Source: Eremomyces bilateralis CBS 781.70 (lineage: Eukaryota; Ascomycota; Dothideomycetes; Eremomycetales; Eremomycetaceae). Taken from it: a stretch of DNA of 64,000 nucleotides. Below are positions 15,051 to 50,914 of this stretch, piece after piece (the stretch's first letter is position 1; every line of letters begins with the position of its first letter). The translations under genes were made by a program, and so were the position numbers. The notes below the pieces were generated by a model that saw only the letters and a program-made list of their open reading frames with translations, made no database searches and was not told the origin of the DNA. Where the stretch lies: positions 642,808 through 706,807 of the forward strand of contig NW_022985067.1 of the NCBI RefSeq assembly GCF_010015585.1, written 5' to 3'.

Positions 15051-17211
15051 CTATGTCACCGCTGTCCCTTCTATAACTTCGGCTGCTCTCTCCAACAGCC
15101 CATTGAACTCCTTCAATTTGCCGAGCAACCCATCATCCTCTTTCCCACACACCCTCATAGCCACATCCTGCAGCTGCAGCGAGAGCCTCTCGTTCATGTG
15201 CGACTCGTCCTGCCCCGTCTCCTTAACTCCATCCTGCACCTGATCCAACGCAAAACCCACCCGCTCCCACCGCCGCACCAGGTCGCGTCTCCGCACTGTC
15301 TCCTTCTCCGCACGCGAAAACCGCGCCCGCACTTCGTCCATTCGCAGGGCCGCATTGTCTCTCTCCCGCCGCACGGTCATCAGCTCTTCCCTTCGCAACG
15401 CAAGGTCCGCTCTCGCACGCCGCAGCCGCGACTCGAGTACGTCGGAAGCATATGCCGTTTCGGCAAGCTCGAAGAGAGTGGTTTGTAGGGTTGAGTCAAA
15501 GGCACGGAGAATGTTGGACTTGCGAGCATGGGCTGCGGGCCCAGTTGGTGGCTGTTGGATGGCAAGGTGCGTTGCAAGGAGCCGATGGGTTAGCTCGGAG
15601 GTGACTTGTGCAAGGACCTCTGGAGCGGTGACTGCGGTGCTGGTTGGATGGCTGGGAGGGGGGTTGGCGAGGCGGTGCGTAGTGATGGGGATGGAAGTCC
15701 CTGACGGTATCGCCACGGGATCTGGTGACGGTTCTCGAGAGGGAGGTTGAAGTTCCACCTGGATGGTGATCCGCTGCCGTTTGGTTAGGGCGAGTTCTGC
15801 CGGCAATTCATCTGATCGACGCTTTCGTGGGATGTAGTGCGTCTCCGGTTCGTAGGATGGGTCGGTGAATGTAGTCATGGCAGACATGGCTGGAGAGGGG
15901 GCAATGGAATCTTCCAACGCGGCATGCAGGAGCTGCCTTTGTGGAGGGTTCCGTCGGCGTGTTAGAACATCCTCATCAAGTTCGTCACCAGTACTGGCGT
16001 CATCGATTATGGTGGCTTCGGGTCGATCGGGCTCCATTTCAGCTGTGATTCGAGAGGATGGGTGAAGACTAGGTGTCCTTGGTTTAGGAGTAACGAACAG
16101 CGGGGATGTAGTGATGGGATTTCGGGTAATCTCAGCAGCGAGGCCTTCCCGCTCCATACGTTGGTTGTGGACTGGAGTCCCCAACATTTTATCAATGTGA
16201 CGTTCGATAGAGGCGTCGTCGACCGTCGATTCATGATGTTTGTCGGGCTGCCTATGCGGCGATGCCGATCCCAGAGCAGCAATCGGCTCTGTTGATTTCG
16301 GGGAGTTGAGGATCGCTTCCTCCAAGTCCTCCAGAGGCAGTCTTGTCCGTCTCCGGCCTCTTTCGACGCTAGGCGGAGCGTGTTCGGATTCGGTAACATT
16401 CTCTTTGCCCTTCAAGAACGATTTCGTCTTGAGCGGGGTGCCAATATTGGCCGAGGGAACAATACTCCCTCCCATGGACGCTCTGGTCTTCCCTAAGTTC
16501 AGACTACTCATACTAAGTCGTCCGTTTGATGCCGCCGGGAGCGGTTTGGAAGGAACCACGTGGTATTTCTTTCCGGTCGATTTGGCCTTTGCGGATCGTA
16601 ATGTTCGCTTATTACCAAGTGTTTTGGGCCCCTCGTCCTCTTGTTGAACTTGGCCATTTTGACCTAGTGTCTGCTCCGGTGTGTGTTGAACAGGTATCTT
16701 CTGCTGCGTACGAACATTCGGGGTTCGTTGCTCGCGCTCTTCTGCGACAAGAGGATCCGTGTCGTTGTGATCGCTAAGTGCCCTATTGCCTTCTGAAGCC
16801 GACACAACTACTTCAGGCTCCTCCTGGACGGGAGCAAAACCACCGGAGACCTCACTATCGCCTTCTGCTTGTGCCGACCATCCCGCGTTCTTCGTAGATG
16901 TCGATTTCGTTGAAGTTGCGGGAGTCTTTCTGGCACTCCTTGTTTTTGTAGAAGCTGGCGTCTTCTTTGACACCCCACTCCCTCGATTTCGGGGAGTCTT
17001 CCTTGACGACGGCTTTGGATTCAATGGCGCAGGTGTTGGAGCCTCTCTCGGCGGAATCGATGGACCAAAGGAGAATCCGAAGTCCGCATTCTTGATTTCG
17101 CGTGTGCCTGCGCCTCGCTGGCGGAGGAGTCGTCGCTCTTGTCGGTCTGATATTGCGATTAGCATTGGTGAAATCCAGGGTTCCAGGTCATTTATTACCA
17201 TTTGGCGCCAT
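15051..17211 (-). CDS. Inner kinetochore protein of the Ame1/CENP-U family
   Basis: Exon 1 is only 13 nt (17199-17211), spliced across a 52-nt intron (GTAATA donor, GCTAAT branch, TATCAG) to exon 2 (15051-17146), giving 702 residues. The start then reads MAPNDRQERRLLRQRGAG, followed by ADFGFSFG. Without the intron the open frame upstream has no conventional start before residues that spoil this motif. Yeast Ame1 begins with a comparable basic arginine-rich RLRGSHSRR motif that contacts the Mtw1 complex. After it come a long Ser/Thr/Pro/Lys-rich disordered region and, near the C-terminus, a heptad-rich coiled coil (LESRLRRARADLALRREEL), as in CENP-U where it pairs with Okp1/CENP-Q. Assignment rests on N-terminal motif plus architecture, so the protein is probable rather than certain. 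Confidence 0.6.
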
Positions 17212-19476: not shown

Positions 19477-22400
19477 TTACACTTCTTCCGCTTCCGCCAT
19501 GATCCTCTCCCCTTCATCCAGCAAATCCATGATCATCCCCAGATCCCCCACCATCTCCTTCGCCTGCGCCTTCAGCAACAACTTCTCTGCATTGGCAGGC
19601 AAGCCCAGGAATGCGGGCGGTTCTCGCTCAGGCAGGACGTTGACCCAGTCCATAAACGCTTTCCACGACGTTTGCGGCGGTACGGCGAGGCCATTCTCCG
19701 CGTCTTTGCTCGGCTGAACGAGGAGATGGTTTTCCTCGAATGCATCGGGCGTCATGAAGGATGAGACGAGATTGCTCAGGACCGCGTGATCCTCTTCGTC
19801 ATCGATTTTGCCGCCGTACATCTCCGTGATAAGAACGCGTATGATGTCCCATGGGATGGAAGTGGGGTTGATGTTGGAGCGGGATTGGGCGGCGGAATCG
19901 ACCCAGTAGTCAATGATAAATGCGCAGCATTCGTACTATTGAATTCGTGTTAGCGACAATTGAGGATACTTTGTGAGGCGGAACACTTACGTCGCTGTCA
20001 TTGAACTCCCAGAACCCCTTCCAACCCAACCGCGGCGCATACCGCAACCTCTCCTGCACCACCGCATGTAGGAAAGAGAGCAAAAAGTATATTCTTGCTC
20101 TCTCGACCGGCTCCTGCGTAGCTCGGTTCGCCGCGCTAGCAAGCGAATCTTTCATGTTCGCCCGAATGCCTGCTGGCTGCTCATACATCAAGACTCGGCT
20201 TGCCCGGAGCAAATTGACCGGGATCTTTGGACTGGTCTCCATGCTCAAAAACAGGCGGAAATCCTTGTGCGGCTTCAACGAGTCGATGCGTTTCTCAAGA
20301 CTCTGAAGCCAGGTGGGTGCAAGATGCACGTTTTTGACGAGCACCCACGAGCCGGTTGCTGCGGCGTTGCTCACTGCCTTGTCTGCACTGGCGAGGCCTT
20401 CCGAAGAACCCATCGCAATGTTCGTGCAATGAACACCCATGCGCTCGACGAGGTTGTCGACCTTGTAGCTGGCGTCGAAACCAGGAGACGAACTGAGTGC
20501 GATGGGCGTAGTTGACTGGACTTGGTCCACTATATCGCCCAGATCTCCAGACGCGTCGAGGAGATCTTTACCGAAGACGGTGGTCACAAAACGCTCCACC
20601 GCAGGAACAAGACGGTCAATGCGGAAGATTTTGACCAGCACGAGTGACCGCAGTTGTTGATCGTATCGGTCGACATTGGAGCTCCATACCGGTGGGATAT
20701 GTTGTTCGGCGAGTTCTTCGGTGGAAAACTTGTCCCAGGCTTCGGAAGGAATGGCGTTGATGTGGTCTTTGAACACCCGGAGCTTCATTGCTCTCGCCAT
20801 TGCTTCATCCTTGCGCGTAGTCTCGGTAGACACATCGAGGCCTTCAAGGTCCTTGTCGAGCACCAAGTCAATTAAAGTTTTGTCCATCTTGAACGGAGCT
20901 GCTTGCGCAAGAAGCATCGCGAGCGTGACTCGATCCTTCTGCAAAAGTGACATGGAGGTACGCCGATAAGTGTTGATGAACAGCTCGCGAATGATGAGGT
21001 CGATCCGCGCTTGATGGTGCGTCTCCTTAGCTTGCCGCGCACGACTGAGGACGGTTTCGAAAATGTCGATGAAATACTGCAAGGAGAACTGGTAGAAATG
21101 ATTGATGTGATGCACTTGCTCCAGAACAGCAAAGATTGCAGCGCATGAGCGAGCAATGCCAGTGTACTGTAGGGTAATGTTCTCGACTTCAGTCATAACA
21201 CCTTCTGTCTCTTCAACCTTGGCACTGATTTCTCCCGCTTCTTTTTTGAGTGTTTCAAGGGTCTCAATAACATTGTCATCATCGAGGATATTGCCCCGAG
21301 ACTCGTTAAGGGCCTGCAATAGCTGCTTCTCAAGCTGTCGGAGATGAACGTTGAACTCTCCCTGCATCTTGATGAGGTTCGAGCGCCTCTCATCGACATC
21401 TGGTCTTTCGGACTTGAGCACCTCATTGAGCGATTGGGTTCGAAGACTGCTTTGGGTAATGGTGAAGTTGACAAAGGTGGTGCGGCTGCAGATATCCGGT
21501 GCGAAGGTCGCTGAGGGATCCCGGGTTGACAGGTACAATTTGAATGAAGGCGAAAAATCGATCTCTTGCTTTCCAAGTTGGATAAGAACACGGCCACCGG
21601 TCTTCTGGTATTCTTTGTTCAGGACATGAGTCAGGATTGGATCGAGATGCTCGGCATCTTGGATGAGAATCGGGTTGCCAAATCGTAATGAGCTCTCGAG
21701 TTGCTTCACGAAGGAATCGTCTAAGAAGCTGGTGACGGTGAGACGGCGGTCCTTGCACTCATTCTGTAGGAACTCGTTCACTCGGCCCGATGGATCGATG
21801 ATGAGAGGATAACGGTTGAACCTCTTGAGGATGATTGCGTTCTCCGTGCACAGATCATCCACAGGCAACGTATTCGCCTGCCATTTCAAGCGCTCATCCG
21901 CGGAAGAGAGATATTCCGTAACTGGGTTGAGAGGCTTGAACTTGATTCCGGAAAGCGTGAGCTGTTGGCGCCAGTCATCACTCATCTTCTGGCGGTATTG
22001 TTGGTCGTAGAAGCCTCCATACGTGACGAAGGCCGCCGCAACGAGAACGTCGCCAACAAGCGTGTCAATCTGTGTCTCAAACGACTTGCTCGTCTCCTCC
22101 CAACGCCCTCGCTCCGAAGACAAGCTCTCAAGAAGTCTGACGCTTCGGTCCACCTTGTTTTGCACTCTCTTCATCTCCGTTGAGATGGATTGGGTTTGGC
22201 TGATCAAGGCCGCATATTCCTCCTTGTATCGTCCAATGCTCGCCTCGAGCCTCTTAACTTCGTTCTCAACAGCCATCGCCTCCGCCTTGGTTTGCTCCGA
22301 ATCATCCTGCAGCTGGACAACCTCCTCGCGGAGTGGTCCGACTCGATCAAGAATCTCGGAGAAGTTGACTTGAGCCTCGACCCATTGTACAAGAGGACCG

Positions 22401-25400
22401 CATGCCCTGCTTGCACGATTAACCCGTTCGAAGGTGAACTCCTCCTTAGACAGGAACTCGTTCCTCATACGAACACGGAGGTTCTTCGTCATTTGGGCCT
22501 CATTGTCGTAGGTAACAATGCTAGCAATAAAATCGTCGCGACGGATGATTGCTTGAATGGCCCTCCAATCTGCAGCTTTATGTCCTAGCAGTGTGCAGAC
22601 AGACTCCAATGCGAGCTTCACGCCAGCCGGAGGGCTCGTCATGGATCTGACCTCAGTCAAATGCTGCCTCTTGATGTTGCTGACGCTCTTCTGCGCTTCG
22701 AGGACTGCCGGTTCTGCCCTCGCCAGATCCTGCTCCACGACTGCGCGACGAGCAGTGATTTCCTGCTCTTGCTTCTCCAACGCTTCCCGGATTTCAAGTG
22801 ACGCCGCTTTGCGCTTCTCCGCTTCACGTTGATCCGCAATCATCCGTTGGAGTTTCTCGTTTGCTTCGGCATCCTTTCGCTCTAATTGGCTCTTCTTATC
22901 AGCAAGGCTATGCCGAAGATCGCGGACTTTGTCGACAGTCTCGCGCAATTTGTCCAGACCAACGTTCAAATGCCGCTGTTGCTCCTCTAGGTCTTCTCGT
23001 TTCTCGTGGTGGAGTTTCGCGTATTGTGCCACAAAGTCTAGGAAGTGACGAGGTGTGAGATACGTCGTCTTGTTATGCTGCTTCTGGAGGCGGGAGTTGA
23101 GATGGGCAATTGAATGATGTATGAAGACCATAGAGTTGACCACTGCATCGCGATGTGAAGGCGGGAGGATGAGGTCTGGGTATGCCGCAGGCAGGGTATC
23201 GGGCGCCGTGTAAGACGATCGATCCAGGTCGATTGATTGTGTGAGTTCCGAACCAACCTGGAATAGAGCTTGATCTGACCAGTCGCCGAACCAATTAAGG
23301 ACGCAACGATTGAACAGTGCAGGGCTAGTGGCGGCTTTGGATGAAAGACCTTCTTCTGGCGGATTCATTGTGAAGACGACGTGCAAATTCTTGATGATCT
23401 GCTGCGTGAACCACTTATAGAGCTCCTCATTGGAGTCAAGGAGGAGACCTTGCCTCTGAGCCCCTTCACGACACGATGTCATGAGCGTGGCGTATTCGTC
23501 GCCTTCGAACAATCCAGGAACCTCAGCATTGGCAAGCAGCGTATTCATGCGTTCCAAGAAGCCAGAATCCAAGACGTTCGACTCATCCATGATGAAGCAA
23601 ATCTTCTCGCCTTTGCAGCCACATCTTCGAAGCACGTTTCGAAGGTCGTCATCGAAATCGGCCGCTGAGTATTTTCCGTGCACTTTGATCTGATAGACCA
23701 TCAGGCCGTTCATCCATGCGACAAACCGGGACAGGGTCGTCTTTCCACTTCCGCTGACTCCAATAAGGATAAGATGACCTTGTGGTTGACGGAAGACACG
23801 GTCAATACGGAGGACATGTTCCAAGACATCATTGAACAAGATCAATGGCACGTCGAGCTCTTCCTCGCAGAATGTCTTGAGTCTCGCTTTTACGAATTCG
23901 CGGAGTTCGCCTCTGTCCACGGGCACGTAGTTCTTGGAAAGCCAATTCGAGAATAGAATCGGTCCACCAAGTGATTTTTCTTCATCAATGACAGGGAAGT
24001 GCTCCAGCGCCACGCGGCGAATACAATCCTCAGTCCAGTTTCGCTCGTCCTCGTCCACGAGTCGATCCTGGAATAATCGTAAAGCTTCGTGGGCCCAGAT
24101 GCGAACCAGGCCCTCCACAGACAGGTTCTCCAGTGGCTTGATCGCTTCGTAGAGACCTCTCACCCAGCGGGTTAGTTCACGAGGAGAATAGACGTAGTGG
24201 GGTTGGATGTCTGGCGTAAAGCGTTTCTGCGACTCGGCATAAAGCTGAACCATAGCCTTCGTGAGAGCATCTGCATGACCACGCAGGGAGGGAAGAATCT
24301 TGAGCACGGCATTGTTGAATGTCCCATAGATTTGGAGCAGAGACTGCTGTCCGGGATAATCGACCATGATTAAAGGAGCATGTCGTAGGAAACGTGAGCC
24401 CATCGGCGTCCGGCCGGCATCCGTAGGAGGGTTACATGCGCCAACAAATTGAATGCGGTCCAAGGTCACCCATGTCTTGTCAGTTGTCCTCCAGAAACCG
24501 TTTTGCTCCACCAACTGTCGGAGGAAGGAGATGGCACGTTGAGTACCATACTTGTCCGGGGCCGGAAGATTGATTTCGTCACAGAAGACGACGAGCCACC
24601 TGCCGATCTGCCGAGGCGAGAGAATAACCCCGTTGAGTGTTTTCTTATACTCACAGTGTTGTTCAAAGGTCTTAACGAGCAGCTCGGGGGTCGTTGCACT
24701 TGAGAAGTTCAGACCGACGGTTTCCATGTTTGGAAGTTTCCTGAGCGCGCTAAACAGCGTCATCGTCTTGCCTGATCCAGGTGGACCGCACAGCAGCAGA
24801 GGCTTGTGTTCAGCGAGCCATGAGTAGAGGACTTCTTCGTGTCTCACCGTATCCAATGTTGGAATGACAACGTCCGTCTGGGTAACCGAATGGGTGTTCA
24901 CTTCAATCGCCGGCACCTGGTTCTGCCACATAGTCCATTCAGCCCTTGGCAATAACACTTCGTAGTCGATAAGGGAGGACGCATCGGTCAAGACAGGAAC
25001 ATCGACGGTGGTCAAGCCAGCAACCATGTCTCCAAACGTCTTGCGGTCAGCCAACGGGCAATCCCCAACTAGAGACCAGACGAGCGCGATGAGCAGCTTT
25101 TTAGACAAAAACGCTTCGATCTGCTCCAGCTCGAGCGGGAAGTCCGCATGCTGGATGTTGTACTCCAAAATAGTCCGGCATGCTTTGTTGAGCAACGAGA
25201 AAAGCGTATTGAGCGCTCGGATCGCGGTGAATTCCATAATATGACGGAAGTTGCGCGCTTGCTCGAGAGTCTTCTCGATGAAGTTGTCGCGATCGACTTT
25301 AGCCTGGAGGAAATCGGCAACGTGGGATTGAACCAGAAGGTTCTTCTGCTGCAGCTCGGCTGGGGGAACGGAATCGTCCTCCACGTCTTCGATGGGAACT

Positions 25401-28400
25401 TGGCGGAGGTTGGCGAGATAGTTGGATATCATCATTTCCGTCGTTACAGTATCGGCACTAAACCAGACCATACCGCAGCGACTGACGGTAGCCAATGTCG
25501 CGTACTTGAGAGTCTCGACTTCGAACATAATCCGGACATTGGGAGGAAGGCTCAAACGCTCCCCATTGGGTAGAGTGAGGAGCTTGTTGTCGTCCAAGAC
25601 CGAATTCAAGTTCTCGACCCATTCAGGGTCAACATCTCCATCGAAAATGATCCAGTGTCTCCTGGTATCTTCGCCGCGAAGGTTATCGACAATCTTCCGC
25701 AGGATGCTCGTGAATAAACCGTCGGTCCATTCTCTCGTCGTGCTATCCAATGTGCCGTACAGCTCTTCTTTTGACATGACTTTCGGGTCAATGACATGGG
25801 ACACTCCTTCGACGCCTTCGACTTTCTGAAGCGCTTGTAATAACACGCTCCACGCGCTGGATTTTCCTGACCCAGATGCACCGACCATCATCACACCGTG
25901 ATGCAACCCCTGAATCTGGAAGAGCTGAAGGGTTTTTGCCAGCCAGTCATCATTGACAACGAGTCTCCTCTCTGCAGCAACTTCTTTGATGGCCTCCTTG
26001 AGGTCATTCAAAGGTGCAGGGACATACTCAACGCCTGGGAATGAGTCATGCTCAATTTTATGCATTTCAATCACATCTTGCCCAATTAGCTTTGGTCCCA
26101 TGGTTTCCCGGAGGCTTTGCACGATGATCTGGGGTTCCACAACGTCTTCTTTTAGACTCTCGCTATCCTGAGAAGCCAGTCTTGCTCGCTTCAAGCCACC
26201 AGAGCTGACCAGCACACTCTTTAACGCACGCAGGCCGAAGTCGTAATGTGCCTGCTTCGATAACCGCCGAGCGCATAGATCGAAGAACGGAACCGTTTGT
26301 CGGGAGAGTTCTTTGGCACAGGAGAAACCTTGCGAGTAAAGCATGACCTCCGCAATGAGCTCCTTGTCCGGCTTCGACATGGCGACACTCCGGAAAAGCT
26401 TCTTCAGGTTATCCGGAAGGTTGGATCGGCCGGCATACCCTGGATTCATGGTGATGAAGATTCCCGTGTTCGGCTCCACGCGAAGATTCCGTCCAATGAG
26501 GTCGATCTGATGTTTGGGGTCCTGTTGTCCCTTTCGGAGACCCAGCTGGATGTTTTGGATTTGCTGAGACACAGCCGACAGGATCCGCTCTTCGAGACGG
26601 TTAAATTCGTCGAAGCAACCCCATGCCCCGACTTGACAGATACCGAGGAAGATGCGTCCCATTGCTTGGAAATCGAACGTGTCGTCACAACAGAACACGA
26701 GCGTAAAGCGTCCCAGTTGAAGCCCGAGTGCCTTGACGGACTCAGTCTTACCAGTTCCTGCGGGTCCGTACGGCGAACCTCCGAGACGTTGGGATAGAGC
26801 CTGTGTGAGAGTCATGAAGCATCGGTCCGTAAGTGGAGTGCGAACGAGACGATCAGCAACGCCGAGATATTCGTACCCGTACACGAGGCTGGCATTGGTC
26901 ATGTCGACGTTCAGTCGCTTCAAAAGCTCCTGATCTGGCTTGTACGCATACCGCATCTGGGCTAACCAAAGGTAATGTGATGGCGAGTCTGCATGCACTT
27001 TCTGCAGATTCTCCGTCACATCGCGCTGGTGCACGAACTCCGTGATCAAATGCTCGTACTTCTTTCTCTGCAACGCATCGAGGTCGGTGAGTACGCCGCC
27101 AGCGAGAATGCGAAGCAGCGCAAGTTGTTGTGAGTGAAGCGCGGACAGTCCCTCGCCGCCGCTACGTAAGCACGCTTCCACAGAGTTGGTCCAGCAGACC
27201 TGCGACCCAAGAACGACGATTTGGGCGGGGAACGTCGAAACGTATTCATCGAATGAAGCTGCATCGATCGTCGGCGCAGCGAGGATTTCTGTAAACTGAG
27301 CTACGGCGTCTGCAAGGAGCTCTGCGAGAGTCGTCTTCATGCTAAGTTCCAGAGCGGCGAGCCACTCGTTAACTTTAGGGATCTTAACAAGGGAGACTTC
27401 ACGCCTGAGCATCACTTGCTCACCCTCTCGCGATGTCAACCCCAAGATTATGTTGTCGTCATTTGTGATGAGGCCTGCGATGCCGGCGAACATCTTTCGG
27501 AGATGCTTGGCGACACGTGTAGTGTTGTTACTGTTGCCGATAATCTCCAACAGATCCTCGTCCCCGACGAAGTAGAACCGAGGGAACGAGACGCGCTCGC
27601 GCTCGAGATACTCTCCAAGCGCTTTCTGGATCTTGCCGAGGAGCTGCGCTAACCGCTCAAGTTTCTCCTGGACTCCCGGGATGGTGAGCACTTCCAGAAC
27701 GAACGGCGAACGAACGACCTTCTTCATCAGGTCGAGGAACTCGGAGTTGATGTTCTGGAATCGGCCGGACTCCATCGGAAGCAGGTGCTTGATATCTGCG
27801 TTGCCGGTGAACACGCCTTCGAGATAAACCCATTGCCGCTGCACATCGATCCAAACATCGAAAAGCACATGGACCCGATTCAGCTTCTCTTCCCAGTTGC
27901 TTGCCTCTTCCTCGAACTCCTTATAGTACGGGGAATGACGCATCGCCTGCAACGAGTTGAGATTCTCGCTACACTTCGCGAAGAGGTCGTCCCATCCTCG
28001 GATGAGCCGGCATTTCGTCTGGTAAGGGATCAAGTCCAATGCGTAGGTTGACCACGTTTCGCGAACCTGTCGCACGAACTCTTCGAGAGCCATTTCGCCT
28101 TGCGCTTGCGCGATCACGTCCCGGATGATATTCTCGGACGGACCGAGCTGCAGGTCCCAGACGTCGCCTAGGGTCATACTCAGCTGGCTATACCGCTTGC
28201 TAGGCTTCAACATCTTGAAGATCTTGATCCAGTGTCGCTCTCGGACGGCTTCGGATCGCATGTCTTGAAGGAGAGGATTGACCTTGAGTAGTTGGCGCAA
28301 CACGTTCTGGACGTGCTCGAACGCCGCATATTGCCGCATGCGAGCCGGCATATCTTTCGTCATCTGGATGAGTTCTTCCAGGCCCTTTCGCAGACGCCGA

Positions 28401-31400
28401 GGTTGGATGGAAGTCCATAGCGTCTCTCGAAGGTCGTTCAATCGCGACCAGATCGTGCTCAGTGCGCTCCAAACGGATTTGAAGTCTTGAACCTCCTCAA
28501 GAAGGGCTATTAACACTGTCTCCGGAGAACCGGGAAGATCAAGTGCCTCCTTCGCCTTCGCCACCATCTCGGACTCATTTCGAAGCTTCAGAAGCCGTGA
28601 ATCGAACGACTGCAGTCGTGAGCTGGCTTCCTCCGGAGGGATTGTCCCTGACACCGGTTTCTCTTCCGCCCACTCCCGTGCAACATCCGCGATCTTCTGG
28701 CTCACAGCCCGATCTTCCGCCACGATCTTGGCTCGCAGTGCATCGGTCTGATCCTGGACGATCTTGGCCTTTCGCTCGAGGATGTCGTTGAGCGTCGCCC
28801 ACTCATTCTCGACCTGATCGACATGTAGCCATTCGGACGGGAACTGATAGCGCTGACGGGACAGCGTCGTTTGGCCGGACCGGAAGGTTTCGATTTCCGG
28901 AGCCCATGTCTTGACGCGTCGTTTGCACTGCTGGACCGTGGTGATGAAGCTGACGGCGTGGGCGGTTGACGAAGCTTCCAGGGAATGCGTCTCGAGGTCT
29001 TTTCGCGCCTTCTCGAGCTCGTTGAAAACGTCTGTCATACGGGCACCCAGTCGCGAGGCGAAGTTGATGAGGATCTCATGTTGCCATTGGTCGTACTTGG
29101 CATTCACCTTCACCTGGACCTGCTCGTAATCGACCGTTAAGAACCGGCCGAATCTCTTGCTATTGGCCGATGTATCGAAGGTCGATCGGCTCTTCCGGAG
29201 CTCTTGGAGAAGTTGCAGCCACCGTGCGAGGTCGTCGCCGAGATTGTCGTAAACGTGCTCCGACCGGAGATCCCACAAGCTTTGAAACTGTAGCCATTTG
29301 GCAACGTACTCGCTAGTTTCGGCGACGCGAGCTTCCACGCTGCTGTACACCGTGGTCAGGCTATTGGCGCATTTGCTCGTGAGCTCGGAGAAGGTTTCCT
29401 CCACGCTGGCGTCAGTACTAGTCTCAACTCGCAATTCATATCGGGTTGCTTTGATCTTCGGCAGCGCGCAGATGATGGATAGCCATTTATGCAGCTGCTC
29501 GAGCCAACTGGCCCTAGCGAATTCCAGCGGTGGGTCCAAGTATATCAATTGATTCTTCATGCAGACCTCTAGTAGAATCGCGTTCAACTGCGGCAGGTAC
29601 TTCGAGGGCTCTTTGTCTGGCTCGGCTTGCTTGAGGCGAGCCTTGGCCGCGTCGGACAATTCCTCAGAATCAAAGAGCTCAATCCATTCGGCGATGGCAT
29701 GGTCTAAACGCGCCCGCAGAATATCTGCGACGCGGTCATTCATCCCAGCAACCCAATGAGGGAGGTTGACATAGTTTTCGAGATTTAGTTGATCGACCGC
29801 GCCCTGGATGGTCCCAAGATGTCTTAGCAGGTCTTCGCTGGTGCAGTGGCAGGTCTCCAGGTCGCGCAGCGCAGCTTGGACGGTTGCGAATATTGACGCC
29901 AGGGTAGCGACCTTCGTTTGCAACAGCGATACTGCCGAGGCGAACTCGCGGATAAATTGGACGTGTTTGCTCTCGCCCCTCGAAACGGGTGCGGAGCCGT
30001 CTGCCGAAGGGCCGGCCGGGAACGGCTGGCGGAAGTGGATGTCGTAGGAATGGACAATTGATTCCCATCGCAGCGGAATTCCTTTGGCAATCAAGCTTTG
30101 AGCGTCGTTTTGATATCCGGAGAGGAGTAAGGAAACGTCGGTCATGCCGCTGATGACGCGGGATGTTTGCGAGTAGGTCCGAACCGATTCCATGAGAGAG
30201 ACTGCGAATGGGTATACGCGCTTTGCCTCCTTCGAGATGTTCGCAATGGCGTGAGGAACCTGATAGTTCAGCCAGAGTAAATTGCGGACCTCCTTGAACA
30301 GCGTGATGATCTGAGGATCGAAGTTTACCGCGATTTCGTAAAGGTTTCCAGACGCTCTTGTCTTGTTGATTGCGAATAGTCTTCCCGAGATTGTAAGATT
30401 CCGTCTTGCAACCTCATGAAGCCATGCGTCGAACACGGGTCTCGTGTCGAGCTTCTTTCGGAACATGTTGCTTTCGCTCTGCAACTTCTGCCCCTCTGCA
30501 TGGAGATCCCATTCTTTGCCAAGAATATCCTCGACGCGCTTCATGTACCCTTCCAACTGCCTCTCGATTTGCCGGGCCCAGATCACGGCGCCTGACACGG
30601 GGGGTAGGTCATGAAGCTGAGCCATCCCGTGGGCCTCGGAGTGGCCATACTGCTGCTTAAATCGTTCATGAAGCGCCGAGATGTCCGCTTTCACGTTGTC
30701 GATGAGCTGCGTTTGATATTCATGAATGGCGCTGCGAATTTTCGGTCGGACAAAGAGCGCATTGAACTTGGAGAAGACCCGAAACATTTCGTTCGCGTTC
30801 CGGGCAGTCGCAAGGCGATCCCGTAGTCGTGCGATGATGGAGTTCTCCACTCGTTGGGTCCGGTCATTGTAGGCAACTTCAGCGTGAGCCCACGTCTGCG
30901 TCCCCTCCATGGTAACATCGAGGACATCAATGTCTTTAACAGCAGCGTATGCTTGGGCAACCTCCTCGACAGCGTCAACATCGCCCATCTCCGCGACAAG
31001 AACAGCATGGGTGCCATTGATCGAATCGGACAGATCTTTGACGACACCAGAGCTCGCAGGACCAAGCACGTTGATGATGGTTCTCTGGAGCTGTTCGTGG
31101 TTGTGGCGGAATTGGCCGATATATTGGAGTCGCTCTTTCGTCTTCAGATGGTTTGCGTTGACCTTGACGGGGATGAAACCATCTTTTCGGCGTTTCAATG
31201 TCTCTCGAGCGACATTCGTGAATCCCCTCAGTTGGTCTTCCCAAGCAATCCAGATTCCGTTCGTGATTTCAATGACCTGCTGGAACTCGCGGTACTCCAG
31301 GTGCATAAGTCGCCGTCCATTGACCAGAGAATGGATCTTCGCGTCCAGGTCGCTAGAAATGGCCTCGACAAATGGAATCGCTCGTTTAATCGGATATGGT

Positions 31401-32676
31401 GACGCGCGGAGCTTCTTATTCAGGTGCGAGAATATGAGGATAATCGCCTCTTTCACCTTTGCCAGCGACTGGGAGGATAGCAGCTCTTCCAAGGGAAAAT
31501 CGCGCATAAGCAAGTTGTACTTCTGCACCATTTCCATCGTCTCTTTCAGTCCTGTGTCTGCGCTGAAGCTAACCGTAGCTTGGAATCGTTTGGCATGCCG
31601 CAAGACTTCCAGAGTCAACCGCACCCCATCGCTCCGCAATTGCTCTTCGATATTCTCCAGCGCCGACTCGAAGCTGATCCAAAAATTAATCTCTTGCGAG
31701 GCACTTCCTGTTGCTGGATCCCGTGTCGTCTTGGTGATAGTTTGAATGTTCCGGATCCAACCGTTCACCGTGGCTTGCAACTGGTTCAACAAATGGGCAT
31801 CGGTGAACAACTTCTGGGGAACCAAATCTATTTTAGGACGATCGTCTGAGCGTGTCTGGGCTGCATCCAGTCCCATCTGAATAAGCGGGTGCATCGGTAG
31901 CGATAAAGCCGGGATCTCAATGTTCTGCTGCAGATGTTGAAGGCTGAGTTCGAGCTCGGCCAGCTTCTTCTTCGCGCCAGGGATTCCGGTTCGAGAATCC
32001 GACTGGCCTTGAGATACCCATGGTCCTGATTCATCGAGTTGTCCCCGTTCGTATGCATCGAAGAATGGGCCGAGGGTGTGGTGAAGGAAGGAATGGAAGA
32101 CCTGAAATGGATTCGCTGCTGGGACGACCGAAGAAGACTGCGCTCCGGCCGCACTCAAGCCAGGGAGGTTTATCAGGCGAATCTGGTCGGCTATCGGGGC
32201 GCTGGGATCGAGCATTTCCGCTTGTTTGAGAAACGCGACGGACGTGACGCAAGTCGTGGTGGGCTTGAACTCCCCGGAGAGAACATATCGAAATCGGTCG
32301 CTGCTAAGTCCTGTATTGCTGTGATTAGTTACGCAGATAGAACCATGGTGAGATAAATCGCACCTTGCTCCCCATTCACAGCATCCGTATCATCTTCTAA
32401 ATATGCCTCTTTGAAGCAATATAGGGCAACAGCGCCCTCCTTGGAAAACCATGTACATTGCGAAAGGGTATTCTCAATTTGTGACGGGGTTAGGATGCTT
32501 CGATTCTGTTCCAAGTCCTCCTTCGTGGCGCCCAAAGTGACTTCCAGCACCCGAGTGATATGATCGAGGAGAATGTTCGGGTCGACAGCTGCGGGTGGTG
32601 AAGGGAGGCCGGGCGTGTCTGTTGGGGAGATGCCATTGGAGTTGACCCCTGGAATGACCGCCAGAGGGCCGTCCAT
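19477..32676 (-). CDS. nudA: Cytoplasmic dynein 1 heavy chain
   Basis: Exons 32364-32676, 19991-32310 and 19477-19935, with introns of 53 and 55 nt (GTGCGA and GTAAGT donors), encode 4363 residues, as in Aspergillus NudA. The tail and linker occupy roughly the first 1800 residues. The motor has P-loops [11 protein letters not shown] near residue 1950 (AAA1), [11 protein letters not shown] near 2245 (AAA2), [11 protein letters not shown] near 2615 (AAA3) and [13 protein letters not shown] near 2955 (AAA4), then the coiled-coil stalk and microtubule-binding region, then AAA5 and AAA6. All four P-loop lysines are present. It is the minus-end microtubule motor that moves nuclei, endosomes and spindles in hyphae. 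The last exon restores the C-terminal domain ([12 protein letters not shown] to the stop); reading through the last intron would truncate it. The long open frames on the opposite strand are shadows. Confidence 0.98.
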
Positions 32677-45330: not shown

Positions 45331-46239
45331 ATGGCGAGACTAAATGAGAATAACCTTCGTCGGGCCACCTTTAGCTCGCTTTTCCGATCGAATGGCGGGC
45401 AAGGGAAGGGGAAGGGAAAGGCTGTCCCTCGCCGACACCGGTAGGTGAGATCATGATAGCGCTGAACTCCACATTGGTATATCGTTGACCCTTTAATTAT
45501 ACCAATCCGTATAATCGCGGCTAACCAAACCACTCACTTCACAGTATCTTACGCGACGATATCCAAGGCATCACGAAGGGTTCCATTCGGTAAGGAGCAG
45601 CGTGCGATCTCATCATGATCCATATGAAATCCAGAAACTAATATCCATTTCTGCTTAGTCGACTGGCTCGTCGCGGTGGAGTGCGACGCATTTCGGCCAC
45701 GATTTACGATGAGATTCGCAAGGTGATCAAGATCAGGGTCCACGAGGTATGCATTTTGTTACCCATCCATCCTAGTCTACTGTTGAGCGCGTTCGCTGAA
45801 TAATGGTGTCCGACTAACTTGCTATGTAGACACTGAAAAACATCACGATCCTTCTTGGTACGTGCTGTTGAAACGAAGAACGGTTATGAGTGACAAATGA
45901 ACTATCTGACTTAATAATAGACCACAAGAATCGCAAAACTGTCATGACCCGAGATGTGAGTTGCACCGGTCCTATTTTCGAGATTGACATGACTGACAAT
46001 TGCTATTCTAGGTGGTTTACGCGCTGAGGAGAGTAAGCCGATTCTTCCAGGTTCATGTGATGCGGCAGATGATGGCTAATTCTCGATTGCGATATTTACA
46101 GATGGGCACGCCAATCTACGTAAGTCTTGGTGCTCTCTTACAATGGAACCCCCCGATTAGCTTCTTACAGTTGTGATAGGGGTTTGGTTCCAATGATTTC
46201 CTCGCTCGACACAAGGAGGTCCTTGTTCACGGCCACTGA
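45331..46239 (+). CDS. Divergent histone H4 variant
   Basis: Eight exons, 45331-45440, 45545-45589, 45659-45746, 45830-45857, 45921-45955, 46012-46032, 46102-46119 and 46180-46239, give 134 residues against 102-103 for H4. All seven introns have GT-AG ends and phases agree. The histone fold is unmistakable: ILRDDIQGITKGSIRRLARR, GGVRRISATIYDEIRKVIK, DHKNRKTVMTRD, VVYALRR, MGTPIYGFGS. Differences: a 20-residue N-terminal extension before GGQGKGKGKAVPRRHR, Arg in place of Lys16, no residue at Lys20 (RRHR joins directly to ILRDD), changed helix 2/loop 2 (IRVHETLKNITILL) and a C-terminal tail NDFLARHKEVLVHGH. Exons 6 and 7 are only 21 and 18 nt. Filamentous ascomycetes are known to carry an H4 variant (hH4v in Neurospora); whether this is its orthologue is untested. 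Confidence 0.85.
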
Positions 46240-46676: not shown

Positions 46677-47801
46677 TCAGACAGCGTAGGGATTATCGCC
46701 GTATTTTTCATGCTCCTTCCCATTGGACCTCGACATCCTACCTGCACTGCTTCTCAGCACCCCTCGGCTAGCATCTACCAGAGGATTAACCCAAATATCC
46801 CTGCCTTCCGGCTTTTCGGATGGGATCTTATATCGAGCAGCACCTTGGGTATGTCAGCAACCTTGCTCCTCTCGCATTTTTCTAGACCATAACACTTACC
46901 ATGCGCAACAGGGTGCGAGTTGATGTAAACACTCTCCCAATTGCCCGATGGCACCGAATAGACCTCATGCCAGATCGAAAGGTAGTCGGCGGTCCCTTCT
47001 TTTACGATCTTGTTCCACCATTCCCAGCCACGACGGTGAATTGGGTCATGGGCGAACTTGTGAACACCCCTGGAACTGTCAGTTGTGGTATCATCGTGGT
47101 GGATAGAGAAATGCCTTACTCAACGTCCCGGAAGTAATACAGGTACATTATACCGTTGGAAGTCGATCGTTCTCCACCGCCCAGCCAGGCACCAGAGCCG
47201 AGCATGCCGTACTTGTCCATTTCCTCTATCCGCAAGTTTAGACTTGTCCACCTCATGTCCGCGGGTATCATGAACTTACTCTCCAGACTCTTTCCCATCT
47301 CGGCGAAATATTCGCCAATCTTTTTTCCGTTCGGCGAGAAAACGCCCATCGGGCTATCCACTACTCGTCAGCACAATGCGATGCCTACAGGTACCGATAT
47401 AAAATGGGGCGAACGTACTGATTTATCCTTACCCCCAGCAGCAGCACCACGACACTTCCATCCGACGGCTTATCCCCAAACTGCCCTCCAGCGCTCGGCA
47501 CCTGCGCGGATGTCTTCCTCCCCACCGCCACATTCTCCAAGTACTCGTTCTTCTTCCACCCCTTCGTCTGGGCGACGGTGTCGATCGTGGCCCAGGTCAG
47601 CCAGACGAGTCCGGGAAGCAGGGCAACGCGAAGAGGAAGAATGAGAGTAAGGATGCTCTGGAGAACAGCGCCGATGGCAATTATGGTGGGAAGAGCGAAT
47701 TGATCGCGCAGAACGGCCAGGCCGAAGGAACCGCGGACTTGGCGGGTAGTTTCTGAGGGGATGGGATTTGGGGACGGGGAGAGGAGCGGTGAGAACGCCA
47801 T
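46677..47801 (-). CDS. ABM-type monooxygenase (Af470/Fma-ABM-like, DUF4188)
   Basis: Exons 47419-47801, 47120-47353, 46900-47069 and 46677-46843, with phases agreeing across donors GTACGT, GTAAGG and GTAAGT, give 317 residues. The N-terminus has a hydrophobic double segment (ALPTIIAIGAVLQSILTLIL, then PLRVALLPGLVWLTW). A DUF4188 core follows: VVVLLLGVRINHPMGVFSP, YGMLGSGAWLGGGERS, MYLYYFRDVEGVHKFAHDP, HRRGWEWWNK, IWHEVYSVPSGNWESVYIN and a C-terminal LVDASRGVLRSSAGRMSR. Fumagillin-cluster Af470 has the same layout and acts as a cofactor-poor monooxygenase. Here the substrate is unknown. It is transcribed in the same direction as the benzaldehyde-lyase-like gene about 565 bases upstream. Confidence 0.75.
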
Positions 47802-48366
47802 CGTAGACAATCAGAAGCGATGACTTGGGTGAAGATGGAGTTTGCAGTATTTCAGATGATTCTCAAGGATTTATAAAGATACTATTAATGGTCTTTAGGA
47901 CTTGCGACAGAGGACCGCCTAGTTCGAAGACGTAAATGGTGAATTCGTGACTGAGACACGCATGTCGGCGTACTCCTATGTACGATGATACGGCCGAAGC
48001 AAGGGTTGAAACCGCCACCATTTGTCCATTTGTCCCGATCCCGACTGCATCTGATGATCACTAATAATGTCTAAGTTCAACACCCAAACTTCATCATCGA
48101 CTTGACGACTTCACGCTGTTTCTGTTTCAGTACAGAATACATCCTATGATGCATTCAAACTACGATATCGATACCAGAGATACTCTATACAATTACGATT
48201 GTTGGCAGTATTGTGGTCATATGTTTTGAAGACTTACTGTGTTACTACAAGTAGCAAGCCTGATTGCCTTGGTCACAGATCATATCGTTTGGGAGAAGAC
48301 GACTTCGGAACAGAAGACGCGAGCTTTTGAAATTCGATGACTCTAAGCTAAAATGATGACCTTTCC
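47802..48366. other. Intergenic region between ABM and ThDP-enzyme genes
   Basis: About 565 bases between two minus-strand genes, holding the promoter of the monooxygenase and the 3' UTR of the upstream gene. Nothing further is recognised. Confidence 0.5.
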
Positions 48367-50235
48367 CTAGTTCTTATATCGTGGTCGTGGCAGGTTGTCA
48401 TAGTACGGCACAACAATCGTGTCCGGATCATCCGTCACACTCACCATTATCGCTGTGACGGGATGGATGGGTTTCTGATCCACAACCAAGTTGATGCACG
48501 ACGGTCCTGGGGTTCCCTGCAGCTTCTTCACGGTGCTCTCGACGTCGGCAATCTTATCAACCTTCGCGGCAGCATTTCCGAGTCCCTTTGCGACCGTCTC
48601 GTATTCAGTGGTGGGACTCAAGTCGCTGACCGGACGAGCGGGATTCTTAGTTCCATAAATGAGCTCCTGGCCATTCGAGCTCATGCCCCAGCAGAAGTTG
48701 TTGACCACGATGGTCATGATGTTGAGGTTGAAGCGCTTGTACGTGTCTAGCTCCATGAAGTGGAATCCAGCGCTCCCGTCTCCTTGAATGTTAATGATCT
48801 TGCGATCGGGAGCGGCGATGGCACAGCCGAGCGAGTATCCGAAGCCGTTCCCTAGGAACCCGAGATACCCACATGCCGACATCACCGCGAACGGCTTGGA
48901 CGTGGCAGCGAGTCCGTTGGACCAAGCTCCGCACTCACCACCGTCATTGATGATGATGCATCCAGGCTCGATAGATGAATAGACCTTCTTCAAGGCGTGG
49001 TATGGGTGAATTCTGCCAGGACTTTGTTCCTCCGGTGCAGTGTCGAACGGTGAAGGGAGCGATTTTACGGAGAGGGCAGCTTGGACCCAACTAGCATCCA
49101 CTGATCCTTGGAAACCAGATTCGAGGCTGGCATTCAGCGCATTCGCCATCTGAGTCACATCCGAGGTGACGCCTAAATCAGTAGGCAGAGTTCGTCCGAT
49201 CTCGCCGCTATCGACATCCACATGAACGATCTTGCATCCCTCATTGGGAATGATCCCTCCACTCTTCCCGCCCAGGAACATACCCGTCCTAACCCCAAGC
49301 AGCAGCGCCAGATCCGGCTGCTCCTTCTTTAGAAGAGGTAACACGCCCAAAAGTCCCGCATGCGTTCCGAGGAGCTCGAAGTCCGCCGGCACGGTCGCCA
49401 GGTATTTCTGGCTATGGAACAACGGAATCCCGCACGTCTTCGCCAACTTCATCAGTGCCTCTCCCGCCTCCTTCGATCGTCCTCCCGTCCCAGTAATGAT
49501 CACCGGCCGCTTCGCCGCCTTCAATAACGCTAGCGTGTCCTCCACTGCCTTCGCATGCGGTCCCGGCGCATATGACAACGGCGACGTGATCGATCCCCAG
49601 GAGATTAACCGCTCCGTGACGGGGCTAAACAACACGTCGATCGGGAAATCCAGCAGCACTGGACCGGGAGCCCCGGCGAGCGCCGTGCGGATGGCATGTG
49701 ACACAAGCCGTGGCGCGTCTTCTGCGTGGGTGACCCGGTGAGCAAATTTCGTGAGCGGACGTGCGACGACCACCTGGTCGATTTGGCCCTGCAAGCTGTT
49801 GTTCTCGGCATCACGCAGCGGCGGAGACGAGGTGATGCAGAGGATGGGACTGCGGTCCGCATACGCGGTTGCAAGGCCGGGGAGACCGTTCGAGTAACTG
49901 GGATGATTTAGTGTTTATGTATCTTGAAAGGAAAATCCATATATATGGAAGAGAAGCGCGTGGGAAAGTACCCACCCACTGTTCGCAGTGACGAAGCAGA
50001 CGCCGATGGTATCCCTGATTTTGGAGTAGCCTTCCGCTGCTTGCACTGCCACTGTCTCATGTCGTGTGTCAATGAGTTTGATGCCGATGGACTCGCATCC
50101 CATGAGAAAGGCATCAAGATGTCCGCCATGGAGACCAAATGCCACCTCGACGCCCATATGCTTCAGACATTGAGCGAGGAGGTCGCCTCCGGTAAGCTCC
50201 CGGGTGCTGGGGTGTTCCAAGGTGAATCCAGCCAT
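48367..50235 (-). CDS. Benzaldehyde-lyase-like ThDP-dependent enzyme
   Basis: Exons 49976-50235 and 48367-49897 with a 78-nt intron (GTGGGT...CATCCCAG) give 596 residues. The layout is that of ThDP enzymes: Pyr domain (FGLHGGHLDAF, LIDTRHETVAVQAAEGYSK), central domain (GAPGPVLLDFPIDVLF, LALLLGVRTGMFLGG) and PP domain with GDGSAGFHFMELDTYK ending in VVNNFCW. The cofactor-activating glutamate is Glu60. His36 and His39 match His26 and His29 of Pseudomonas benzaldehyde lyase with a constant offset of ten, and later blocks (NGLPGLATAYADRSPILC, NSLQGQIDQVV, KFAHRV) also follow that enzyme. Such enzymes make or cleave alpha-hydroxyketones; relatives include 2-hydroxyacyl-CoA lyase, but no C-terminal peroxisomal SKL is present. 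True substrates unknown. Confidence 0.82.
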
Positions 50236-50914
50236 GGTCAGGGATAGTTCAGTCTGGCTTCCAAAGGTAAATGTTGAGATGGGTTAACGTTTGTTAATTG
50301 AGGAATCTCGGGAATTCACCGGGAATATTCGAATGGCCGTTATTTTATTTATTTATGCCTCAAGCGGATGTCGTGCATATATATCGCGACGCGGCACCAT
50401 CTGCGGGGCTACAGGTAGAGATCCGAAGTACCGGTATGCGGGGAAGTGGCGGTACCGGAAGAGTGAAGACCGCCCAGAACATCCTCTCCACTCCGGATAT
50501 CTTTGTCCTGGAATCGAGTCGAAAATATTGGTAGTCTATGGCCTGATCAATTTCTTTTAGTCTACAGATGTATTGGCATGGTCAGTTGTTGCCGTATAAT
50601 CCGTGCAGGCCTATTAGGAGGGGTTCTGGGACCATGAGGTGAATCCCAGCAAGCACCGATGCGTCTATCCCAAATGTATCATATCCCATCAGTCACTTAC
50701 CCAGCTACATCAAGGAGAAAAGGTGGCATATTTTGAATGAATGCGGTACCACTCGCTTTATCGTCTTACGTCAGAGCACCTGCTCAATATTTTCTACACG
50801 TCCCGCCTGCCCAATACCGAGCCAATACTACGGATGCCTCCAACACCAGACATGAGAAGTTGACCCCAACCCTTCACCCAGCGCTAAGAAAGCCGCCGGA
50901 TCCGGAAATAACAT
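50236..50914. other. Intergenic region upstream of ThDP-enzyme gene
   Basis: About 680 bases. The minus-strand promoter of the ThDP enzyme should be at the left; an AT-rich ATTTTATTTATTTAT run at 50342-50356 lies about 110 bases from its ATG. Short open frames are unsupported. Confidence 0.45.

Follow-up and report, generated by a model that had tools for sequence, protein, structure and literature searches.

The described systems closest to the gene reported here are H4E, a fungal variant of histone H4, and, by analogy rather than by family kinship, engineered H4 alleles of Zymoseptoria tritici, a Dothideomycete. H4E occurs across most of the Pezizomycotina, and H4v of Neurospora crassa, an H4 variant with an intron layout unlike that of canonical H4, is treated as its orthologue (Flipphi et al. 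2024, PMC10878826). In the published H4E gene model, phase-2 intron i1 is followed by a 29–32-nt exon, a second intron (i2), 16 nt, a phase-2 intron (i3), 88 nt and then phase-0 introns; the figure legend gives 3′ exons of 60, 18 and 21 nt, and the text describes 63 nt followed by a step of 19 nt (early classes and Lecanoromycetes) or 18 nt (Dothideomycetes) (PMC10878826). According to the same text, the gene is flanked by nudA and svf1 in both Eurotiomycetes and Dothideomycetes, position 16 is Arg or a non-polar residue in many members, and an insertion of 5–16 residues in the fold is confined to the Eurotiomycetes, some species of which lack it, rather than being a family-wide trait. An intron of the eurotiomycete genes divides the 63-nt exon into 45 + 18 nt, and no stable H4E tree was obtained by Flipphi et al. 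(PMC10878826).

In Aspergillus nidulans, H4E localizes to the nucleus, interacts with H3 in split-YFP assays and does not substitute for H4.1; its expression is low, and highest in nitrogen starvation at 37 °C (PMC10878826). The second system concerns the mark carried by lysine 20. In Z. tritici, all H4K20 methylation is made by Kmt5, and Ash1-dependent H3K36me3 requires H4K20me3; an extra H4 carrying K20L or K20M removed H4K20me3 outside facultative heterochromatin, and an extra H4 carrying K20Q had no effect (PMC10553808).

The gene that we analysed occupies positions 45331–46239 on the plus strand of a 64-kb stretch of DNA (the window), and the exon–intron reconstruction returned the same coordinates as the initial annotation. 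Eight exons of 110, 45, 88, 28, 35, 21, 18 and 60 nt (405 nt) encode 134 residues and a stop in an intact frame, and all seven introns are GT–AG. Exon 1 (45331–45440, 110 nt) encodes the divergent N-terminal tail, MARLNEN...GKGKGKAVPRRHR, and ends in phase 2 with its final codon split, as at H4E i1. Intron 1 (45441–45544, 104 nt) runs from GTAGGT to CACAG and contains a CTAAC branch-like site; the Lys20 codon is missing from its junction. Exon 2 (45545–45589, ILRDDIQGITKGSIR) has 45 nt, equal to the 29 + 16 nt of the H4E model without i2. Exon 3 (45659–45746, 88 nt) covers α1, loop 1 and the start of α2, which continues through exon 4 (45830–45857, 28 nt) and ends, followed by loop 2, in exon 5 (45921–45955, 35 nt). 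Between the latter two lies intron 4 (45858–45920, 63 nt), a phase-1 intron that divides the conserved 63-nt exon into 28 + 35 nt. Exon 6 (46012–46032, 21 nt) encodes VVYALRR, exon 7 (46102–46119, 18 nt) encodes MGTPIY and has the length of the Dothideomycete 18-nt exon described in PMC10878826, and exon 8 (46180–46239, 60 nt including the stop) encodes the C-terminal extension GFGSNDFLARHKEVLVHGH. Retention of introns 1 to 5 would bring in a stop at codon 38, 53, 100, 95 and 126, respectively, and retention of intron 7 would replace the C-terminal tail, with a stop at codon 134. Intron 6 (46033–46101, 69 nt) is the sole intron whose retention preserves the normal stop; it would add 23 residues ahead of MGTPIY, which is probably due to chance.

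The encoded protein is recognizably an H4: a phmmer search against solved structures gave an H4 match at E = 8e-30. As in canonical H4, the 81 residues corresponding to H4 21–101 align without a gap, with 46/81 and 48/81 identical to two reference H4s (roughly 57–59%), and R17-H18-R19, R45, H75, R78-K79-T80, Y88 and YGFG are kept. The variant differs from canonical H4 in that its core is not near-invariant, Lys 5, 8, 16 and 20 are not at their aligned places and α2 is changed. The substitutions are concentrated in this helix, where 20 of 28 positions differ from both references, versus 12 of 53 elsewhere in 21–101 (Fisher p = 3e-5), and its net charge shifts from −2 to +2; the changed dimer-contact helix proposed in the initial annotation is thereby borne out. 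The direction of its hydrophobic face is retained (12 versus 10 degrees; 243/20000 shuffles were as close), with modest support from two other α2 measures (1393/20000 and 735/20000 shuffles), although the hydrophobic moment drops to 0.23, from 0.37 in H4. In α3, the moment is rotated by about 34 degrees relative to H4. Pfam assigned no family to the variant at E ≤ 0.001, and at E ≤ 1 returned only TAF (0.0023) and CENP-T_C (0.033), both below cut-off. This null result says little, because a canonical H4 itself scores 24.9 bits against the Pfam core-histone model, under the cut-off of 26.4.

Both tails are longer than in H4. The N-terminal tail has 37 residues before ILRD versus 21 in H4 including Met, so that an extension is present as annotated but amounts to 16 residues net rather than 20. 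Canonical H4 has one residue after GFG; the variant has 16, in agreement with the annotated C-terminal tail past GFGS. Within the N-terminal tail, Arg34 aligns with Lys16, as had been claimed, K8 is replaced by Gln and K5 by Asn, and K12 is retained as K28. The tail carries three lysines (26, 28 and 30), of which K26 and K30 are new; acetylatable lysines therefore persist even without K5, K8, K16 and K20. Where canonical H4 reads KRHRK-ILRDN, the variant reads RRHR-ILRDD, with no Lys ahead of ILRD. In a gapped alignment K20 is absent; in an ungapped one P-R-R-H-R stands opposite K16–K20 and K20 is replaced by Arg. Because Arg precedes I21 with or without the gap, the absence of Lys is the same whichever alignment is chosen, and the closest upstream Lys (K30) is 8 residues off. 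On sequence grounds, then, the earlier statement that K20 methylation and K16 acetylation could not be placed on this protein stands; their absence in vivo would follow from it, and lysines 26, 28 and 30 remain in the tail. One H4 in the structural database, chain B of PDB 6yov, aligns as KRHRVLRDN, likewise without Lys20, perhaps a peculiarity of the deposition or construct.

The exon layout, 110 (phase 2)–45–88–28+35–21–18–60, follows the H4E model with three departures: i2 is missing, a phase-1 intron is added and the order of the small 3′ exons is 21–18 rather than the 18–21 of the legend in PMC10878826. The 63–21–18 order found here is closer to the text of that paper than to its legend. 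With the A. nidulans-type gene (hheA, PMC10878826) the locus shares the positions of i1 and i3, the spans of 88 and 63 nt and the 18-nt 3′ exon, and with the H4E proteins described there the longer, divergent tails, the conserved core, the basic patch and the change of K16 to Arg. It differs from hheA in lacking i2 and both the eurotiomycete insertion, of which the ungapped alignment of residues 21–101 with H4 gives no sign, and the eurotiomycete intron, and in splitting 28 + 35 nt by the intron at 45858–45920, which the text of PMC10878826 does not describe. The 18-nt exon, together with the missing eurotiomycete insertion, points to a probable dothideomycete origin, going by the text of PMC10878826. 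Of the two published neighbours, a nudA-type dynein heavy chain has its main open reading frame (ORF) on the minus strand at 19913–32389, about 13 kb from the variant. At least four Pfam-matched genes separate the two, a difference from hheA, and svf1 was not seen among the 35 distinct ORFs scanned, a selection of those in the window.

Judged by intron layout and sequence rather than by a tree, the variant is almost certainly a member of the H4E family. The relationship to Neurospora hH4v suggested in the initial annotation is upheld through this layout and the published orthology of H4v with H4E (PMC10878826), the comparison with H4v itself being one with its description. Database searches added no further members. 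With the variant as query, 0 of 39 pattern stretches were confirmed in the viral_contigs collection and 0 of 435 in genome_contigs; with an alignment (A1) as query, 2 of 273 were confirmed in genome_contigs and 0 of 148 in viral_contigs, none of them an H4E relative. Both A1 matches come from records of bacterial metagenome-assembled genomes (MAGs) and presumably represent eukaryotic contamination.

What such a histone might do is suggested by analogy with Z. tritici, and we put the following forward tentatively, as a mechanism that is somewhat less than an even prospect when taken as a whole: as a minor H4 paired with H3, the variant would give rise to nucleosomes in which Kmt5 cannot methylate H4K20. 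The protein would be produced at a low level, apart from the main histone supply, and would dimerize with H3 through the conserved α1 and loop 1 and the substituted α2 with its retained hydrophobic face. It may then be incorporated into a minority of nucleosomes, which would keep the RRHR basic patch but be closed both to K16 acetylation and to H4K20 methylation by Kmt5/Set9, the one fungal enzyme for that mark, and would form local gaps in a domain of H4K20 methylation and of the H3K36me3 that depends on it. Because the helix that contacts H2B is changed, altered nucleosome stability is proposed as well. Like the K20L and K20M alleles (PMC10553808), the variant would in principle supply an H4 that is unmethylatable at position 20 alongside normal H4; those alleles, however, are engineered and otherwise canonical, whereas H4E is a natural gene that diverges throughout. 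The absence of an effect of K20Q (PMC10553808) implies that an H4 without Lys20 need not act in trans. A bolder version, in which H4E is deposited at chosen loci during stress or development and interrupts facultative heterochromatin dependent on Kmt5, H4K20me3 and H3K36me3 as a mark-proof nucleosome, strikes us as very unlikely.

Alternatively, H4E could work mainly off the nucleosome as another partner of H3, either a reservoir or a chaperone substrate. The only interaction shown for the A. nidulans protein, that with H3 by split YFP, suits this reading (PMC10878826), and the changed α2 may weaken the H4–H2B contact needed for the octamer. However, overexpressed H4E–GFP overlaps an H1 marker, and growth is mildly impaired when the hhfA promoter drives expression, an effect for which the authors suggest incorporation as a possible cause (PMC10878826). 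We regard a mainly off-nucleosome role as unlikely. A gene of the H4E family without Lys20, combined with the proposed exclusion of the mark from H4E nucleosomes, is in our judgement the likely best explanation overall, the exclusion itself being the more tentative part.

That explanation presupposes a functional gene, and the divergence of the sequence could instead reflect decay: a near-neutral H4 paralogue in which relaxed selection removed Lys20 and altered α2, and whose protein does little. In A. nidulans, neither deletion of H4E nor its overexpression from alcA produced a phenotype, and the family has been lost or is absent in Penicillium, Botryosphaeriales and Ophiostomatales (PMC10878826). 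The aligned core of what is otherwise a very conserved histone has diverged by about 40%, and, while the codon usage of the variant is coding-like, all four neighbouring reference genes slightly exceed it in mean codon bias and GC3. Against decay, we simulated neutral drift of canonical H4 to the same identity in two sets of 5000 runs with sites treated as independent. The frame remained free of stops in 914/5000 and 886/5000 runs, but only 2/5000 and 1/5000 also left all 28 splice bases (14 splice ends) untouched, as they are in this gene. Stop-free runs with α1 and loop 1 as conserved as observed (at most 4 differences) numbered 43/5000. The intron layout is, moreover, conserved across the subphylum (PMC10878826). 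As gauged by this simulation, relaxed selection seems unlikely and the H4E gene is probably intact and under selection; decay as a full account of the locus seems to us decidedly unlikely.

The claim that the Lys20 codon is absent at an exon junction also depends on the junction itself. All GT, GC and AT donors in 45400–45499 were paired with all AG acceptors as far as position 45579, with introns of about 40 nt or longer and the downstream structure held fixed. Only three AG dinucleotides occur within 45501–45590 (at 45543, 45566 and 45577), and four joins read in frame through to the stop. The obvious choice among these joins GTAGGT (45441) with CACAG (45544) and gives CAC CG|T ATC, that is, H-R-I; in each of the other three, exon 1 is shortened and exon 2 loses roughly half of its length or more. 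A Lys ahead of ILRD results from none of the four, and in each the absence noted in the initial annotation holds. Alternative splicing that restores Lys20, which the annotation had named as a possible refutation, was accordingly rejected for the donors and AG acceptors paired here. It is extremely improbable that the loss is a gene-model artefact hiding a different junction with Lys20: the junction is known from genomic sequence and the test covered AG acceptors, but no in-frame join yields Lys, retention of intron 1 runs into the stop at codon 38 and the 45 nt of exon 2 equal the published 29 + 16 (PMC10878826). An intact, intron-dense H4E member with Arg at position 16 and no Lys20 codon is well supported.

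As the family has already been published and a change at K16 already reported (PMC10878826), the novelty of the gene is smaller than the initial annotation implied. The point of interest is a natural H4 without Lys at position 20, which the text of PMC10878826 does not discuss: the terms 'Lys20', 'H4K20' and 'lysine 20' are absent from its main text. No paper on the loss of K20 in H4E was among the open-access matches listed. By hand count, the exon bounded by i1 (CG|T) and i2 (A|CC) has 32 nt when it includes the Lys20 codon and 29 nt when it does not. The range of 29–32 nt in the published legend leaves one codon of play, from which it follows that other H4Es without K20 probably exist and should show up in the published alignment (PMC10878826). 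If the absence recurs, it would offer a concrete hypothesis, local exclusion of H4K20 methylation, for a variant for which no function has been found, and species with exons of 29 and 32 nt would become comparable.

Elsewhere in the 64-kb window, no H3 gene was found, the best tblastn match having E = 0.8. An ORF on the minus strand at 15054–17282 matches the CENP-U family (E = 6e-9) and is likely an inner-kinetochore gene. Immediately downstream of the H4 variant, the minus strand at 46775–50283 carries a match to an af470-like monooxygenase together with a thiamine-pyrophosphate enzyme.
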